Assembly (NCBI GenBank): GCA_017431005.1
Contig: JAFRLY010000057.1
Coordinates: 62,001 to 126,000, forward strand
DNA length: 64,000 bases
Reading direction: 5' to 3'
From: Clostridia bacterium
GTDB lineage: Bacteria > Bacillota > Clostridia > Christensenellales > Aristaeellaceae
The position numbers and the translations under genes are program-made. Positions 1,281 through 12,279 of the stretch are shown here, one piece after another (the stretch's first letter is position 1; each line of letters opens with the position of its first letter). A model generated the notes under the pieces. It was not told the DNA's origin, searched no databases, and saw only the letters and a program-made list of their open reading frames with translations.

Positions 1281-1359
1281 AGCCGGGGCGATGACGGCAG
1301 GCGTATGCTGAAGACAATGGAGCGAAAACGCTCCCAACAGATGAAAGGCAGGTAAAACC

Positions 1360-3699
1360 ATGAGGAAACTGGCGTTATTGCTGGCTCTGCTGCTGGCGAT
1401 GACTTCCCTGAGCATCCCTGCGCTGGCCGTGGAGCAGCCGGAGATTCAGGCGACAGTCAAGAACATCATCACCGTGGACGGATTGCAATTCAAGGATCTG
1501 AACGATAATGGACAGCTGGACGTGTACGAGGACTGGCGGGCGGATATCGAGGACCGCATCACCGACCTGCTGAGCCAGATGACACTCAAGGAAAAGACCA
1601 TGCTGCTGTACCACATCTGCACCTGCAGCGACAATTCCGGCGTGGATTTCACCAACCCGGATACCTTGTATAAGCAGGATGGTCCCTATGACGGTACCCA
1701 CTATTCCATGTGGTATCACATCAACGTGTACGGCATCACCGATTACCTGGACAACTCCAACGGCACACCGGACGAACAGGTGGGCGCGCACAACGAAATG
1801 CAGTCCATGGCCGAAGGAACCAGGCTGGGCGTACCCCTCACCTTCTCCTCCGACCGTGAATTCAACGCCTGGGGTGGCTACATCGATACCCCTCACAACG
1901 CCTTCGGCCCCTCCGGCGACGCGGAGCTGTCCAAAAAGCTGTGGGAAAGCTATTCCGCCCAGACCCGCGCGGTAGGCTATCACGTGATCTTCCAGCCCTA
2001 CGGCGTGGAGCTGAGCTCCTGGAACGGCGAGGATCCGGAATACATCGCCGAAATGACCACCGCCGAGGTGGAAGCCCTGAACGCCGGCGGCGCGCTGGCG
2101 TGCGTGAAGCACTTCATCTCCCGCACCGGCTTTGGTTCCGACCACAGCGAAGCGTGGAACGTGGATAACTACATGGTGGGCTGGAAGGCCGCCATCGCCG
2201 CGGGCGCCAAGTGGATCATGACCAACAGCTACGGCAAGGGCCTGGAAGCCAACCTGACCGTGGACTACGACTACGAAACCCTGCCTTACCTGCGCAACGA
2301 GCTGGGCTATGAAGGCGTAATCCTCACCGACTGGGGCTCCCTGGGCAACGATTACGGCACCCAGACCGAGGAAATCGCCGCCCTGTCCATTCCTGAGCGC
2401 TATGCCTGGGTCATCAACAGCGAAGTGGACCAGATGGGCGCTCCCGGCGCCGGCGCTACCATTGAAGAAACCCTGGCCGCCACCGGCCCCGGCATCCTGT
2501 ATGTGGACGGCGTAAAGGAAGCCGTGGAAGCAGGCCTGATCACCGAAGAACGGCTGGAGGCCTCCTGCCGCCGCATCCTGCGCACCAAGTTTGAACTGGG
2601 CCTGTTTGAGAATCCCTATTCCGACGGTGCGAAAGCCCTGGCCCTGTCCGCCAGCGATGAATTCATCGCCGGCAAGTGGGAAATCACTGACAACGAATCC
2701 CTGGCCGCTGCCCGGAAGCCCGAGGAAGTGGAACTGGAGCGGGAGCTGATGGCCAGGAGCGCCGTGCTGGTGAAGAACGAAAACAATCTGCTGCCCCTGG
2801 AAAAAGGCATCAAGGTGTACATCGATTCCACCTCCACTGCCGCCAACCTGGACGGTTATAAGAAGTACATTGCCAATTACGCCGAAGTTGTGGACGAAAT
2901 GGAAGACGCCGACGTGGTCATCGCGGACTGCACCCAGTTCAACGACGCGGCGGAAATGATGATCGAAGACGCGCAGGACGAGGAAAAGCCTCTGGTACTT
3001 ATTGCCAACTGCGTGAATCCCAACCAGTTCGCCATGGAAAGCGGTAATGCCGTGCTGGCCCTCAACTTCTCCCGCACCGCGGACCACGGCACCGGCGTTG
3101 GCGGCATCAACACCCTGACAGAGCCGGACGTGTTCGCTGACCTGCTCTTCGGCGTGCGGGAACCCGAAGGCTTCATCGTGCAGGAAATCGCCCGGGACGA
3201 CGTGATGGACGGCGCCCAGTGGAAGGATCTGGCCGGCGATCTGGGTCTGGATTCCTACACCCGGCTCCTTCTGGAAGCCATCATGCTAACCTCTGAAAAC
3301 AATGTGACCCCCAATAACTGGAGTGACGCGCTGCTGCAATACAGGTACGGCATGCGCTACGGCCAGCAGGCGGAACTGAGCTATACTGCCCTGGTGCTGC
3401 CCAAGGTGGCAAAGGAAGTGGAAACCGAAAGCAGCGGCTCCACCTCTGTCAGTGTGGAAAATGTGGTGGAAGCCAGGGCGGGCGAGCCCTTCACCATATA
3501 CTGCCTGGTGTGGAACAAGGGAGCTGCCGGCGTGGAAACCGTGAAGGCCTATGACGGCGAAACCGTGATTGGTGAAAAGATCATGGCGGTCAACGGTGAA
3601 AGCTGGCGCGTGCTCAAAATGGACGTGACACTGGATCAGCCCGGCGTCCATACAATCACCCTGGGCAACCTGACCGGCACCATCAGCATCGTGGAATAA
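1360..3699 (+). CDS. Secreted GH3-family beta-glycosidase
   Basis: This is a 779-residue protein with a Sec signal peptide (Lys-rich start, Leu/Ala core, likely cleavage after ALA near residue 23). Residues ~45-60 hold an Asp/Asn-rich, calcium-loop-like turn (LNDNGQLDVYEDW). The GH3 barrel follows, with a KHF motif near residue 250 and a TDWG motif whose Asp324 is the expected nucleophile. The GH3 C-terminal domain and a beta-sandwich tail complete it. The lack of any anchor suggests release or loose retention at the surface. RBS-like AGGCAG precedes ATG. It is probably monocistronic, with terminators on both sides. Substrate (beta-glucoside, beta-xyloside or other) cannot be read from the sequence. 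Confidence 0.88.
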   Translation: MRKLALLLALLLAMTSLSIPALAVEQPEIQATVKNIITVDGLQFKDLNDNGQLDVYEDWRADIEDRITDLLSQMTLKEKTMLLYHICTCSDNSGVDFTNPDTLYKQDGPYDGTHYSMWYHINVYGITDYLDNSNGTPDEQVGAHNEMQSMAEGTRLGVPLTFSSDREFNAWGGYIDTPHNAFGPSGDAELSKKLWESYSAQTRAVGYHVIFQPYGVELSSWNGEDPEYIAEMTTAEVEALNAGGALACVKHFISRTGFGSDHSEAWNVDNYMVGWKAAIAAGAKWIMTNSYGKGLEANLTVDYDYETLPYLRNELGYEGVILTDWGSLGNDYGTQTEEIAALSIPERYAWVINSEVDQMGAPGAGATIEETLAATGPGILYVDGVKEAVEAGLITEERLEASCRRILRTKFELGLFENPYSDGAKALALSASDEFIAGKWEITDNESLAAARKPEEVELERELMARSAVLVKNENNLLPLEKGIKVYIDSTSTAANLDGYKKYIANYAEVVDEMEDADVVIADCTQFNDAAEMMIEDAQDEEKPLVLIANCVNPNQFAMESGNAVLALNFSRTADHGTGVGGINTLTEPDVFADLLFGVREPEGFIVQEIARDDVMDGAQWKDLAGDLGLDSYTRLLLEAIMLTSENNVTPNNWSDALLQYRYGMRYGQQAELSYTALVLPKVAKEVETESSGSTSVSVENVVEARAGEPFTIYCLVWNKGAAGVETVKAYDGETVIGEKIMAVNGESWRVLKMDVTLDQPGVHTITLGNLTGTISIVE

Positions 3700-4593: not shown

Positions 4594-5265
4594 ATGACCT
4601 TCAACGACATTTTCAAATCCTCTTTCCTGGAAAACGTGACCGCTGTATCCATCACCGATATGGCGCTTGCGCTGGTATTATCCTTCTGCCTGGGGCTGTT
4701 CATTTTCTTCGTGTATAAAAAGACCTATTCCGGCGTCATGTTCTCTCAGGCCTTCGGCGGATCACTGATCGCCATGACGATGATCACCACCATGGTGATC
4801 CTGGCTGTCACCAGCAATGTGGTTCTGTCTCTGGGCATGGTGGGCGCCCTGTCCATCGTACGCTTCCGCACCGCCATCAAGGAGCCCATGGACATTGCGT
4901 TTCTCTTCTGGGCCATCGCCGGCGGCATCGTGCTGGCGGCGGGAATGATCCCCCTGGCTATCATCGGCAGCGTGATCATCGGCGTTATCATGATCGTGTT
5001 CTGCAACCGCAAATCCGCTCTGAAGCCCTACATCGCTGTCATTTCCTGTGACGGCGGCAGTACCGAGGAAAAGGTGGCGGCGTATCTGAAGGAGAACACC
5101 GACAAAACCGTCGTGAAATCCAAGAGTGCTCAGAAGGGCAGCATTGAGCTGACCTACGAAGTGACGCTGAAAAAGGACGACACCGATTTCATCACCAGGC
5201 TCAGTGAAATGGACGGCGTCAGCAGCGCGGTGCTGGTGAGCTACAACGGCGATTATCTGGGGTGA
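4594..5265 (+). CDS. DUF4956 membrane protein
   Basis: The 223-residue protein has four predicted transmembrane helices in residues ~20-135. It carries the DUF4956 signature loop GALSIVRFRTAIKEP followed by a hydrophobic LFWAIAGG helix. A soluble C-terminal domain of ~80 residues has an ACT-like beta-alpha pattern. Its biochemical role is unknown. The family commonly occurs beside VTC-domain and CotH-kinase genes, as here, suggesting a membrane partner for the VTC protein. RBS AAAGGAG lies before ATG; the next gene starts four bases after its stop codon. Confidence 0.87.
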   Translation: MTFNDIFKSSFLENVTAVSITDMALALVLSFCLGLFIFFVYKKTYSGVMFSQAFGGSLIAMTMITTMVILAVTSNVVLSLGMVGALSIVRFRTAIKEPMDIAFLFWAIAGGIVLAAGMIPLAIIGSVIIGVIMIVFCNRKSALKPYIAVISCDGGSTEEKVAAYLKENTDKTVVKSKSAQKGSIELTYEVTLKKDDTDFITRLSEMDGVSSAVLVSYNGDYLG

Positions 5266-7462: not shown

Positions 7463-7636
7463 GGTTTTCCCGATATCCCCGCAAAGATGCTATTCCCTGT
7501 GCGGTTTTTTCCGGTTCCGGATGTTTTCTCCATGCTATGCTTTCATCAGAAAGCCCAAGGGTGGCGCATGCCCTTTTGTCGGAGGGGCATCGGCGCCCTG
7601 GAGACAATTCGGAACAATTGAAAGGAGCAAAACTGC

Positions 7637-10066
7637 ATGAAGAAACTCTCTCTGATCCTGGCCATCGTCATGTTGATGAGCTGCGTGTCCGGCGCTTTTG
7701 CGGAAGAACCCGTAGGCGCGAACCAGGTAATGGACGTGCGCGCTCAGGAAGTGGATGAGGAAGCCGCCGCGGCTGAAGAAGCACGTCTCGAGAGCGACTG
7801 CGCCTTCTCCGTCATCGAAGCGGATGAAACCACCGGCCAGAAGAAACTGTCCTACATCGAGGGCGTCACCGCCATTCTGGAGGTGGACGGCCTCAAATTC
7901 AAGGATCTGAACAAGAACGGCGCCCTGGACGTGTATGAGGACTGGCGCGTGGACACCGACACCCGCGTGGCCGACCTTATCAGCCAGATGACTCCCGAAG
8001 AAGAAGTGGGCCTGCTGTTCTGCGTGAACACCCAGCTGGCGGACGCCGCCCAGATGGTACGGGAATACGCCCTGACCTGCCAGCTGTTCAACCTGAACGG
8101 CACCCCCATCACCATCACCAACACGCTGAATAACCTGCAAGCCGATGCGGAAGCGGAGCGCCTGGGCGTGCCCATGGTGTTCACCTCCGACCGTGAGTAC
8201 AACTCCTTCGGCGGCTACATCGACAAGGCCCACGAGGGCTTCGGTACTGCCAACGACCCCGAACTGGCCTACGAGCTGGCCTGCTTCTACGGCAAAGCCA
8301 TGCGAGCCGTGGGCATCCACGTGACCTTCGAGCCCTATGCCGAGGAGATCGGCGCTCAGTACGGCGAGAACCCCGAATACCTCGCCGCCATCGCTCATGA
8401 GGAGATCCGCGGCCTGGAAGAAAACGGCCTGGCCTCCTGCACCAAGCACTGGATCGGCCGCGGCGGCGACTCCTCCTTCGGCAGCGCCCGCTCTGTGGCC
8501 CAGAACTTTGAAAACTGGATGGTGGGCTGGAAGGCCGCCCTGTCCGCCGGCTCTGAATGGGTCATGACCAACTGCGGCGGCACCGGCATCACGAACACTG
8601 TCGACGTCAAGTGGGACAAAACCACCATGGACTACCTGCGCAAGGAGATCGGCTTCCAGGGCGTAGTGGTCACCGACTGGTGGGCCCTGGGCGGCGGTCC
8701 CAACAACCCCGGCCGCATGAGCGGCATCACCCCCGAAGGCGTTGATCTGAGCCAGCAGTCCATTGCCTGGCTGTACAATGAAGCCCTGGCCAACGGCACC
8801 GACATGTTCGGCTCCGGCTCCATGATCCGCGATTACAGTAACTGGGAGCAGTCCCCCTCCTCCAACTATCCCCAGGCGATTATTGACGGTCTGGCTTCCG
8901 GCGAGGTGGACAAGGCCAACGTGGATCAGGCTGCAACCCGGATCCTCCGGTTCAAGTTCAACAAGGATCTGTTTGAGAATCCCTACTGCGACGTGAAGGC
9001 CGCGGTTGAGCTGTGCGCCAGCGCCGAGTGGGCCGCCAACCCCACCCCCATCACCAACGACGAGGAGCTGCGTGCCGCCCGGAATCCCATCGAAGTGGAA
9101 CTGACCGAGAAGCTGCAGGCCAAGAGCGCCGTGCTGGTCAAAAACGACAATAACCTGCTGCCTCTGGCGAAGGATGTCAAAGTGTATGTGGAAGCCAGCA
9201 GCAAGGACGCTGCGGAAGCCTATAAGAAGTACTTCGCCGAAAAAGGCGCGACTGTCGTGGAAGAAATGGAAGACGCCGACGTGGTGGTGGGCGACTTTGG
9301 TACCATCAACGACGCCACCGAGCTCTTCATCGAGGACGCGCAGGACGCTGAAAAGCCCATCGTGCTGAGCCTGAACGGCACCAAACCCACTCAGTATGCC
9401 ATCGAAAGCGCCGATGCGCTCCTGTACCTGAGCTACAGCCAGGGCGCTGACCACGGTTCCACCGAGGGCGGCTTCATCACCGGCACCGCTCCCTGGATCT
9501 ATGCCGATCTGATCTTCGGCGACCGCGAGCCCGGCGGCGTGATCAACAAGGAAATCGCCCGCGACACCGTGGCGGATAACGAGCAGTGGAAAGACCTGGC
9601 CGGCGATCAGGGCGCTTCTCCCTATGTGCGTCTGATGGTGCAGGCCACCATGGAAGACGATCCCAACCATGCTTCTCCCAACAACTGGGGCGATCCGCTG
9701 GTGACCTACCAGTTCGGCATGAGCTACGGCAAGGATCCTGAATTCAAGTATTCCTGCCTGATCCTGCCCATGGCCCAGGAGACCGTGGAAGTGGAATCCG
9801 GCTCCTCCACCAGCACCCAGACCACCGTGTGGAACCAGGCCAAAGCCGGCGAACCCTTCACCGTCTACTGCCTGCTGCGCAACACCGGCGCGGATGGCCT
9901 CACCACTGCCCAGGCCAGGGTGAACGGCGAAGTGGCGGCTGAAAAGATCATGACCGTTGAAGGCGGCTCCTGGCGCGTAGTACAGATGGATATCACCGTA
10001 GACGCTCCCGGCGAATACACCATCGAAATCGGCGACGCCGTCAACACCATCAAGATCGCCGAATAA
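7637..10066 (+). CDS. Secreted GH3-family beta-glycosidase
   Basis: The 809-residue protein is a paralogue of the genes at 1 and 1360. It has a signal peptide ending near AFA (residues ~20-22) and an extra ~40-residue acidic, Glu/Ala-rich segment before the barrel. The LNKNGALDVYEDW turn is shared with the paralogue. The barrel has CTKH near residue 275 and VVTDWW with the expected nucleophile Asp347. A GH3 C-terminal domain and a beta-sandwich tail ending TIKIAE follow. Ribosome binding site AAAGGAG lies before ATG. Proline and alanine codons are strongly biased to CCC and GCC, as expected of a highly expressed gene. Substrate is unknown; the several secreted paralogues suggest related but distinct linkages. 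Confidence 0.88.
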   Translation: MKKLSLILAIVMLMSCVSGAFAEEPVGANQVMDVRAQEVDEEAAAAEEARLESDCAFSVIEADETTGQKKLSYIEGVTAILEVDGLKFKDLNKNGALDVYEDWRVDTDTRVADLISQMTPEEEVGLLFCVNTQLADAAQMVREYALTCQLFNLNGTPITITNTLNNLQADAEAERLGVPMVFTSDREYNSFGGYIDKAHEGFGTANDPELAYELACFYGKAMRAVGIHVTFEPYAEEIGAQYGENPEYLAAIAHEEIRGLEENGLASCTKHWIGRGGDSSFGSARSVAQNFENWMVGWKAALSAGSEWVMTNCGGTGITNTVDVKWDKTTMDYLRKEIGFQGVVVTDWWALGGGPNNPGRMSGITPEGVDLSQQSIAWLYNEALANGTDMFGSGSMIRDYSNWEQSPSSNYPQAIIDGLASGEVDKANVDQAATRILRFKFNKDLFENPYCDVKAAVELCASAEWAANPTPITNDEELRAARNPIEVELTEKLQAKSAVLVKNDNNLLPLAKDVKVYVEASSKDAAEAYKKYFAEKGATVVEEMEDADVVVGDFGTINDATELFIEDAQDAEKPIVLSLNGTKPTQYAIESADALLYLSYSQGADHGSTEGGFITGTAPWIYADLIFGDREPGGVINKEIARDTVADNEQWKDLAGDQGASPYVRLMVQATMEDDPNHASPNNWGDPLVTYQFGMSYGKDPEFKYSCLILPMAQETVEVESGSSTSTQTTVWNQAKAGEPFTVYCLLRNTGADGLTTAQARVNGEVAAEKIMTVEGGSWRVVQMDITVDAPGEYTIEIGDAVNTIKIAE

Positions 10067-10155: not shown

Positions 10156-12279
10156 ATGTTAAAAAAATGTTTGGCCCTGCTGTTCGCTGCCGTATTCCTG
10201 CTGTCGATGATGACGGCGGCATATTCCGAGGCAATTTCCCGTCCCGCCCCTGAGGTGATCGAAGGGGAAAAGTACGTGAGTGATCATCTGCCCGGGGCCT
10301 CCGCGCTGTACGTTTCCGGACAGCAGGTGACGCTGGACGGGGCTTCCTTCTATGGCGCCGGGTACGCCGATGACGAGGAAATTACCGCCCAGATTCCCAA
10401 CCAGTACGGCCTTTGCGCCGTCGTGCTGGCAGCGGGGCAGGGAACGGAAGTTACCCTGAACAGCCCCTCCATCGTTTCTGATCCCGAAAGCTACGCCAAC
10501 GGCGTCTTTTCCGCTGCCATGGCGAAGATCACGGTCAACGGAGGCACCATCGACACGGATAATTCCTCCGGCCACGGCGTGGACGCCACCTACATGGGCC
10601 GGGTGTATATCAATGATACCGTGATCCATACCCGCGGTGAAACCTCCGGGGCGCTGGCTACCGATTTCGGCGGCGGCTTCGTGATCGGCGGGCGGCTGGA
10701 CTGCACCACAGAAGGGGGCAGCTCACCGGGCATCTTCTGCGCCGGTTCTTCCATCTTCCTGCTGAAGGATTCCACCTTTAACACGGCCAAAGCCACCGGC
10801 ATCGTGGTGGCGCACGACCACGCCGCCGTGGTGCTGGATCACTGCGAAGTCAATGCCGCGGGAACGGCTGTCAATGGCTTGCAGGCTCTGCCCAACGCAG
10901 CGTCTTCCGACGGCAGCACGTTCTATGCCTTTGGCGGAAAGCTCATCAGCCGGACAGGCGCCGTAATCGGAGAATCCGGCGGCAGAACAGCGGTCAGCCT
11001 GATCGGTGCGGAATGTGCGGGCGGCAGTGAAAACGCCATTGCCTGCAAAAGCGCCGGCATTCTGACCGTCAATCTTTGGGATACAGAATTGGCAGGGAAT
11101 ATCGACTGTGCGGAGGGCTGCTCCGTCACCGTGAACCTCTATGCCGGCGGCAGGCTCAGCGGAGAAGTGACGGGCGAAGGGCAAGTGGAAATCCGTGTCT
11201 ATGACGGCGGCGAATACACCGGCAGCTTTGCAGCGGCAAAAGGAGGCACAGGCGAAGCGGCCCCTGCGTTGGGCAGCTTCGATGACTATCTGATCAGCTG
11301 CTGGGCTTCCGGCTCCTCCACCTGGACGGAAAGCAGGGCTCAGGAGTATGTCAGCAATTATGAAACTAAAATCGTCGAAAACTCTGCCGCTGCATTGGTG
11401 ACTGCCGGCGCGGCGGCGGCGCCGTACGATCCGGCGGTTTACAATCCTTCCGAAAACGGCGTGGATCTGAGCCTGCTGAACGTGGGCGGCGCTCATGGAT
11501 TTACTGTGTCGGAAATTTTTGGCGGCAGCCAGTCTGGCAAAAAAACCGGCGGGAAGTCCGGCGGCAAGCCTTCCGTGTCCGGAAAACGCCCGGAAAAAGA
11601 CAATTCCTCCTCCGTAATCGATACGATCCTGAACGTGGGTACTACCCAGGCGTTTGTGGATGATGCCGTTCCTGTTGATGATCTGAAAACCATCCTGCAG
11701 GCCGGCCTGTCTGCCGCAAGCGCCATCAATCAACAGCCCTGGTATTTCGTTGCTGTGACGAATCAGGAGCTGATGAGCGAGATCACGGGCTCCGGCACGG
11801 GCACGGTGCCCTCCGTTCCCTCCACAGAAAGTGATAACAGCAGTTTCGCTCCCAGTGAGGGCGGCAGCGCCGGGGAAGGTTTTGCTCCCAGCGAAGGAAA
11901 CAGCTTCGGCCCCAGCGAAGGCGGGCCGGCAATGCCCACGTCTGCCGGCGGAGCAAAAGCCGGATTGGGTGATTCGCCCGCCGCCATCATCATTTACCGC
12001 AATGATGGCACCAGCTCCCCCAACGCGGACTTTGACTGCGGCCTGGCGACGCAAAACATGGTGATCGCTGCCGCGTCCCTGGGTTATGGCGTCAAGATTG
12101 TTTCCTCTCCCACCATGACGCTGAATGGTGCAGATCACGATGCGCTTTGTGAGAAGATGGGTATTGATCAGTCTCTGGAGGCCGTCGCCGTTTTGCTGAT
12201 CGGCCATGCCGACACAGATGCCGTCTCCGGCGCCACTGCCAGGGAAACGCTGGAAACCCGCACCGTCATCATAGAGTAA
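10156..12279 (+). CDS. Secreted beta-helix protein with nitroreductase-like C-terminal domain and SGAT flavinylation-like motif
   Basis: This 707-residue protein has a signal peptide (cleavage near AYS, residue 23). Residues ~40-370 form repeated short beta strands typical of a right-handed parallel beta-helix. After a Lys/Gly/Ser linker, residues ~490-707 resemble the nitroreductase fold: a DAVPVDDLKTILQAG helix, NQQPWYFVAV, and LATQNMVIAAASLGYGV. A Ser/Gly/Pro low-complexity insert splits it. The Arg-Arg-Ser that normally opens the family and holds FMN phosphate reads TTQAF. The tail carries DAVSGAT (residues 688-694), which fits the Dxx[ST]GAT consensus where ApbE attaches FMN to Thr. This suggests a covalent flavin outside the cell. 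Function is unknown. Confidence 0.8.
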   Translation: MLKKCLALLFAAVFLLSMMTAAYSEAISRPAPEVIEGEKYVSDHLPGASALYVSGQQVTLDGASFYGAGYADDEEITAQIPNQYGLCAVVLAAGQGTEVTLNSPSIVSDPESYANGVFSAAMAKITVNGGTIDTDNSSGHGVDATYMGRVYINDTVIHTRGETSGALATDFGGGFVIGGRLDCTTEGGSSPGIFCAGSSIFLLKDSTFNTAKATGIVVAHDHAAVVLDHCEVNAAGTAVNGLQALPNAASSDGSTFYAFGGKLISRTGAVIGESGGRTAVSLIGAECAGGSENAIACKSAGILTVNLWDTELAGNIDCAEGCSVTVNLYAGGRLSGEVTGEGQVEIRVYDGGEYTGSFAAAKGGTGEAAPALGSFDDYLISCWASGSSTWTESRAQEYVSNYETKIVENSAAALVTAGAAAAPYDPAVYNPSENGVDLSLLNVGGAHGFTVSEIFGGSQSGKKTGGKSGGKPSVSGKRPEKDNSSSVIDTILNVGTTQAFVDDAVPVDDLKTILQAGLSAASAINQQPWYFVAVTNQELMSEITGSGTGTVPSVPSTESDNSSFAPSEGGSAGEGFAPSEGNSFGPSEGGPAMPTSAGGAKAGLGDSPAAIIIYRNDGTSSPNADFDCGLATQNMVIAAASLGYGVKIVSSPTMTLNGADHDALCEKMGIDQSLEAVAVLLIGHADTDAVSGATARETLETRTVIIE

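Follow-up and report, generated by a model that had tools for sequence, protein, structure and literature searches.

A clade of apparently exported nitroreductase-fold proteins, mostly from Clostridia, with a putative ApbE flavinylation site in place of the phosphate grip

We put at about two in three the probability that the ORF at positions 10156–12279 of the window (the whole 64-kb stretch of DNA analyzed here) encodes an exported nitroreductase-fold protein whose FMN is linked by ApbE, through a phosphoester, to Thr694 in its C-terminal tail. This assessment is drawn from sequence comparisons. Throughout the clade to which the protein belongs, the phosphate grip of canonical nitroreductases has been lost and a C-terminal tail is conserved, a combination that supports the proposal of the first-pass annotation that a nitroreductase fold may have been converted to covalent flavin use outside the cell. 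The main rival to covalent attachment is non-covalent binding of FMN by the same tail.

The window gene, its motif, and its flanks

The gene lies on the + strand, as do all features given here for its 707-residue product, which is composed of a signal peptide, a beta-helix, a Lys/Gly-rich linker, a nitroreductase-fold domain, and a terminal motif of the ApbE type. A signal peptide had been claimed at the outset, and the N terminus (residues 1–24, positions 10156–10227) is signal-peptide-like by a simple hydropathy rule (score of 3.06), with a cleavage site placed by eye. Residues 113–236 (10492–10863) match the Beta_helix family (Pfam: PF13229). The secreted nitroreductase-like host domain that had been described corresponds to a match with PF00881 (66.7 bits) at residues 496–684 (11641–12207), and the fold match of a relative's structure model agrees with this assignment. 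Alignments place V494-G-T-T-Q498 (11635–11649) where the R-R-S-x-R phosphate grip has been lost and identify INQQPW at residues 524–529 (11725–11742) as a conserved flavin-pocket motif. Within the domain, at about residues 547–600 (11794–11955), is a low-complexity Gly/Ser/Pro insert that is modeled with low confidence; across the alignment this Gly/Pro/Met/Ser-type insert (positions 546–603) varies from 3 to 83 residues in clade members (n = 32) and from 4 to 33 residues in canonical sequences (n = 31). The putative flavinylation motif, DAVSGAT, occupies residues 688–694 (12217–12237) and ends in the predicted FMN acceptor, Thr694 (12235–12237). Beyond it lies Arg696 (12241–12243), which is invariant in the clade and aligns with a C-terminal arginine of canonical nitroreductases. 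The 707-residue protein has no Pfam match to FMN_bind (PF04205) up to an E value of 1.

The letters and location of DAVSGAT, and its agreement with Dxx[ST]GAT, are as first annotated. The string alone is no evidence, because a dinucleotide model predicts 0.58 occurrences of D..[ST]GA[ST] in a six-frame translation of a window like this one and at least one match occurs in 28 of 60 windows simulated under that model. We therefore rejected the rarity of the motif as an argument, a single match across all six frames being what chance yields; as judged from sequence, the evidential weight of the site is its conservation.

Upstream, a secreted-looking GH3-like gene (7637–10066, + strand) ends 89 bp before the ORF. 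A CotH gene (PF08757; 5270–7381, + strand), which belongs to a recurrent class of neighbors of clade genes, has a DUF4956 gene (4594–5262) upstream of it. Three GH3-like paralogues are found in the window (about 3–1154, 1345–3696, and 7622–10063), and the DUF4956 and CotH genes sit between the second and the third.

The tail and the phosphate grip across the clade

A search of genome contigs with six peptides, none of which covers the motif, returned 13 relatives, mostly from Clostridia MAGs, many of which are ruminant-gut genomes according to their titles. One of these (L002) is 74% identical and matches over its full length; the remainder match in the nitroreductase domain only. The 13 domains, tail included, formed profile A1, and a wider profile, A2, also includes the tail, so that tail-less relatives score lower in the family, order, and phylum searches. 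With that bias, A1 matches 32 of the 308 genomes searched within the window's family and, in an evenly drawn order-level sample of 297, three genomes (the window's own counted); A2 matches 91 of 398 phylum genomes. Among the 30 phylum loci listed are the window, three further tail-bearing loci (L081, L082, and L087), and 26 canonical nitroreductases; four additional phylum matches that reach the tail end of the profile (L130–L133) are all canonical. Loci L003–L012 of profile A1 are recognizable among the family-search loci by identical tails and are each counted once, and we dropped L014/L070 (a broken frame) and L080 (identical with the gene in L075).

Our joint alignment sets 32 rows from the clade against 31 canonical ones, the latter comprising 26 phylum relatives and five paralogues from the window's genome. 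In a tree built after removal of the grip and tail columns, the clade forms one side of a branch with support of 100/99 that is recovered in all 200 of 200 bootstrap trees, and these sequences therefore fit a single origin of the exchange of grip for tail.

The pattern D.....[ST].R is kept in 35 of 36 clade tails, in rows of down to 33% identity, whereas the strict D..[ST]GA[ST] occurs in 13 and a relaxed D..[STA][SG]A[ST] in 27; the strict motif thus misses 22 of the 35. These 36 tails include four half domains (L073, L076, L082, and L087) that are excluded from the 32-row counts. The tails of L002–L013, relatives found by motif-free peptides, fit D.....[ST].R in all 12 readable cases. In the joint alignment, 31 of the 32 clade rows have Asp688, 30 have Ala693, 31 have a Ser or Thr at position 694, and all 32 have Arg696, with conservation of Asp688 and Arg696 equal to that of the flavin-pocket residues. 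Position 692 is Gly in 13 rows and Ser in 14, and the residues seen there overall are G, S, A, T, Q, and H; tails without the Gly include those with SSAS (L013 and L078) and TAAT (L063). Canonical rows have an Arg at the column of Arg696 in 29 of 31 cases and a three-residue gap at positions 688–690 in 28 of 31, and none of the 31 has a D.....[ST].R tail. The sole exception among the clade tails is L074 (genome G394), which reads NDCFSVPDR and lacks the motif; its pocket motif is altered as well (PNISWW in place of INQQPW), and it is possible, judging from these residues, that this member has lost its flavin altogether.

The first-pass annotation had also noted that the Arg-Arg-Ser expected to hold the FMN phosphate is replaced by Thr/Gln-type residues, and loss of the grip is seen across the clade. 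The canonical R-R-S-x-R reads V494-G-T-T-Q498 in the window protein, residues that align with R10, S12, and K14 of NfsB; position 494 is Arg in none of 32 clade rows versus 30 of 31 canonical rows, and position 498 is Arg or Lys in one clade row (L081) versus all 31 canonical rows. The register with NfsB at the C terminus differs between methods: both MAFFT --add and hhalign with profile A2 align Arg696 to Lys205, and hhalign with the 63-row alignment puts position 694 on Lys205 and Arg696 on Arg207. The structure model of the window domain is poor (mean pLDDT of 64.8); that of L013, a relative with a short loop, has a mean pLDDT of 72.6, with residues 160–166 below 50, and the motif loop falls below 50 in both models. 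Two cysteines also recur in the domain. Cys628 is present in 28 of 32 clade rows and 24 of 31 canonical rows, and Cys665 is nearly specific to the clade (26 of 32 versus one of 31); given export, these cysteines might form a disulfide or take part in redox chemistry.

Export, apbE, and candidate redox partners

By the simple hydropathy rule, 28 of 35 clade ORFs have a signal peptide versus none of 26 canonical ORFs (L013 and L087 are in neither list). The seven misses (L059, L061, L070, L073, L076, L081, and L082) are fragments, lie at a contig end, have a broken frame, or have starts that the rule rejects.

The window's genome (3.0 Mb, 85% complete) encodes one apbE gene (G000:C16:10786–11565, E value of 3.6e-65), distant from the window ORF, which answers the question of the first-pass annotation as to whether the enzyme is present. 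Although 34 of the 36 clade genomes carry an identified apbE (the window's own, 12 of 13, and 21 of 22), this co-occurrence says little and we discount it as support, because all 23 family genomes in the order sample carry apbE regardless (the base rate in that sample being 204 of 297) and the gene is located elsewhere in the genome. The two searched clade genomes in which apbE was not found, G005 and G328, are both incomplete MAGs (G328 is 62% complete; G005 resembles G333, at 66%, which has the same tail), and both hold strict motifs: DAVSGAT in L006 (G005) and DATSGAT in L059 (G328).

Other proteins with SGAT-type sites, which the first reading had proposed to look for, are also present in the host. 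The window's genome encodes three FMN_bind proteins, whose motifs are DAAAGAT (twice), DGVSGAT, DAYSGAT, and DAISGAT. One of these proteins, encoded by L015 (G000:C24:31001–31777, reverse strand), is a secreted-looking reductase with three FMN_bind repeats (DAAAGAT, DAAAGAT, and DGVSGAT), and from these repeats it is possible that it is multiply flavinylated. None of the six other nitroreductase-like ORFs of the host (L020, L021, L023, L024, L026, and L029) contains D..[STA][SG]A[ST], and a search of the window's genome for DUF4405 found none.

In two clade members, L077 (2525–4846, − strand) and L078 (1446–3722, − strand), the nitroreductase domain is fused within a secreted-looking protein to FMN_bind and FAD_binding_2 domains. 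A gene for an FMN_bind/FAD protein adjoins the clade gene in L117 and L127, and a DUF4405 gene lies directly upstream of the clade gene in L005; DUF4405 has been described as a flavinylation-associated cytochrome (PMC11334425). These fusions and neighbors together suggest that the clade domain is a module of an extracytosolic flavin chain. The FMN_bind modules of the two fusions carry DATSGAT and DTTTGAT, and their terminal domain ends in D..S[HS]AS.R. The Gly is thus kept in the FMN_bind site and replaced by His or Ser in the nitroreductase tail of the same polypeptide, and the tail may therefore be under another constraint.

Across 34 loci, whose flanks are of unequal length, the neighbors include CotH (seven loci, the window included), GH3-like genes (four), FMN_bind/FAD reductases (four, two of them the fusions), and DUF4405 (one). 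CotH is also found near L069, outside the 34 loci, GH3-like genes also occur close to the clade gene in L005, L111, and L125, and GH3, CotH, beta-helix, and CBM9 genes are the neighbors of some clade members. There is no constant neighbor across the 34 loci, and we therefore name no substrate. The combination with a beta-helix, which the first-pass annotation regarded as undescribed, is present in the window protein but is incidental, Beta_helix being fused to the nitroreductase domain in only two of the 34 loci (the window and L002). Separate Beta_helix genes occur near a stand-alone nitroreductase gene in L111 (6566–7951, − strand) and L125 (456–1883), and the beta-helix part of the window protein does not match them. 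Proteins of 736–737 residues are encoded near the gene for the domain in L111 (3395–5602) and L124 (5925–8135, − strand), with no Pfam match up to an E value of 1e-4.

How the tail may hold FMN

We infer the bond, the occupancy of the pocket, and the electron path as follows. The protein would leave the cell flavin-free, the host ApbE (G000:C16) would recognize D688-x-x-S-G-A-T694 in the C-terminal tail and transfer FMN from FAD onto Thr694, and the tail would fold back, with the isoalloxazine occupying the normal pocket (SAINQQPW) and Arg696 still touching the FMN phosphate. The tether would substitute for the lost R-R-S-x-R and keep the flavin in place in an extracellular setting that offers little free FMN and no NAD(P)H. 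Electrons would come from other redox carriers of the envelope, for instance a DUF4405-type membrane cytochrome or flavinylated FMN_bind/FAD reductases. The protein itself would act as a terminal reductase or an electron relay.

The tails can be compared with what is reported for ApbE substrates, for which the consensus is D-x-x-[ST]-G-A-[ST], replacement of the Gly by Ala leaves about 50% flavinylation, and Ser is a poorer acceptor than Thr (PMC12052999). In a fumarate reductase from trypanosomatids, the Ser of D(g/s)x(s/t)(s/g)AS is reported to carry the flavin (PMC8065229). This reported tolerance takes in clade tails whose motif Gly is kept or replaced by S or A; it does not cover T, Q, or H.

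The alternative in which the hydroxyls of [ST]-x-A-[ST]-x-R and Arg696 hold the phosphate of a dissociable FMN, replacing Arg-Arg-Ser without ApbE, is in our judgment rather unlikely, though it has to be weighed seriously. It would account for the Gly being conserved in only 13 of 32 rows, for the interchange of Ser and Thr, and for the invariance of Arg696, and the C-terminal tail of ordinary nitroreductases is reported to contact the phosphate already (PMC10805014, PMC10722498). It does not lead one to expect Asp688 in 31 of 32 rows, an acid beside a phosphate, yet the first residue of ApbE motifs (PMC12052999), and we see no evident reason for an exported clade to abandon a cationic grip without gaining a tether. 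The argument from Asp688 is itself weakened because an Asp-to-Ala change has only minor effects in one ApbE substrate (PMC12052999), even though the motif Asp is termed essential elsewhere (PMC10722498). That result, together with the strict motifs in both genomes in which no apbE was found, slightly weakens the covalent reading and the wider clade-level proposal given below, and slightly strengthens non-covalent binding. A domain that has lost its flavin and serves a structural role, binding cell wall or polysaccharide in company with the beta-helix, GH3, and CotH proteins, would explain the loss of the grip, the GH3, CotH, beta-helix, and CBM9 genes among some neighbors, and the altered L074; we consider it very unlikely, since S522, N525, Q527, P528, and W529 are all retained in 31 of 32 clade rows (the exception being L074), which would be unexpected in a dead pocket. 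An 8-alpha-S-cysteinyl bond to Cys628, modeled on the nitroreductase-fold AlbA with its FMN on Cys115 (PMC11055893) and consistent with the 28 of 32 clade rows that have this Cys, merits hardly any credence, given that the column is about as often Cys in canonical rows (24 of 31) and that the FMN-bound structures 3ek3 and 3pxv carry the same-column Cys too.

Covalent attachment at Thr694 would place the clade beside several known systems. FMN_red and Flavodoxin_4 proteins, predominantly from Firmicutes, are likewise related to flavoproteins that bind their cofactor non-covalently and have acquired an ApbE motif at the flavin-binding site, FMN_red through a C-terminal extension (PMC11334425). 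They differ from the present clade in their folds and in the co-localization of their genes with apbE, which in the window's genome lies elsewhere; flavinylation is demonstrated for those systems, whereas the present case is known from sequence, with a loss of the grip documented across the clade. The main text of that paper does not contain the word nitroreductase, nor does the main text of PMC8238504 contain nitroreduc. The engineered nitroreductases BtNR-F1, -F2, and -F3 (PMC10722498, JACS 2023) share the fold, an ApbE motif, a Thr-phosphate-FMN linkage, and an Arg (Arg211) that still contacts the phosphate, but they are man-made and have the motif at the N-terminal grip (residues 11–17 in F3), whereas the window protein is natural, with the motif in the C-terminal tail and the N-terminal grip lost. 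The same paper states that all known nitroreductase representatives hold dissociable FMN. The cyclodipeptide oxidase AlbA (PMC11055893, Nat Commun 2024), described there as the only reported instance of a natural nitroreductase-fold protein with covalent FMN, has its 8-alpha-S-cysteinyl bond on Cys115 rather than an ApbE phosphoester, and R24, R28, and R175 remain on the phosphate. FMN_bind proteins and FMN_bind/FAD reductases are secreted and have D-x-x-[ST]-G-A-T sites, and two clade relatives are fused to such a reductase, but the window protein lacks an FMN_bind match. Canonical nitroreductases (the 26 phylum relatives within L083–L109, and NfsB) share the fold, the pocket motif, and the C-terminal Arg, but almost all of their rows read R-[RK]-[SG]-x-[RK], and they lack a D.....[ST].R tail. 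In the literature searched, we found no natural nitroreductase flavinylated by ApbE.

A wider proposal is tentative, and we place its chances just short of even: the entire exported clade would descend from one event in which electrostatic binding of FMN gave way to covalent FMN, attached by ApbE in the C-terminal tail; ApbE recognition would be looser than the consensus, admitting Ser, Ala, and others at the Gly; and in some members the domain would be a second flavin module attached to an FMN_bind/FAD reductase, giving a chain of several flavins outside the cytosol.

If covalent attachment at Thr694 is correct, the nitroreductase fold would join FMN_red and Flavodoxin_4 (PMC11334425) among the flavin folds naturally converted to covalent flavin made by ApbE, and the clade would be a natural counterpart to the covalent nitroreductase engineered in 2023 (PMC10722498). 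The ancestral grip being lost, the clade would allow this trade to be tracked residue by residue. The sequence rule for ApbE substrates would be broader than the strict motif, which misses 22 of 35 tails here, and the clade would point to a so far unstudied group of extracytosolic reductases in gut Clostridia that have not been cultured.
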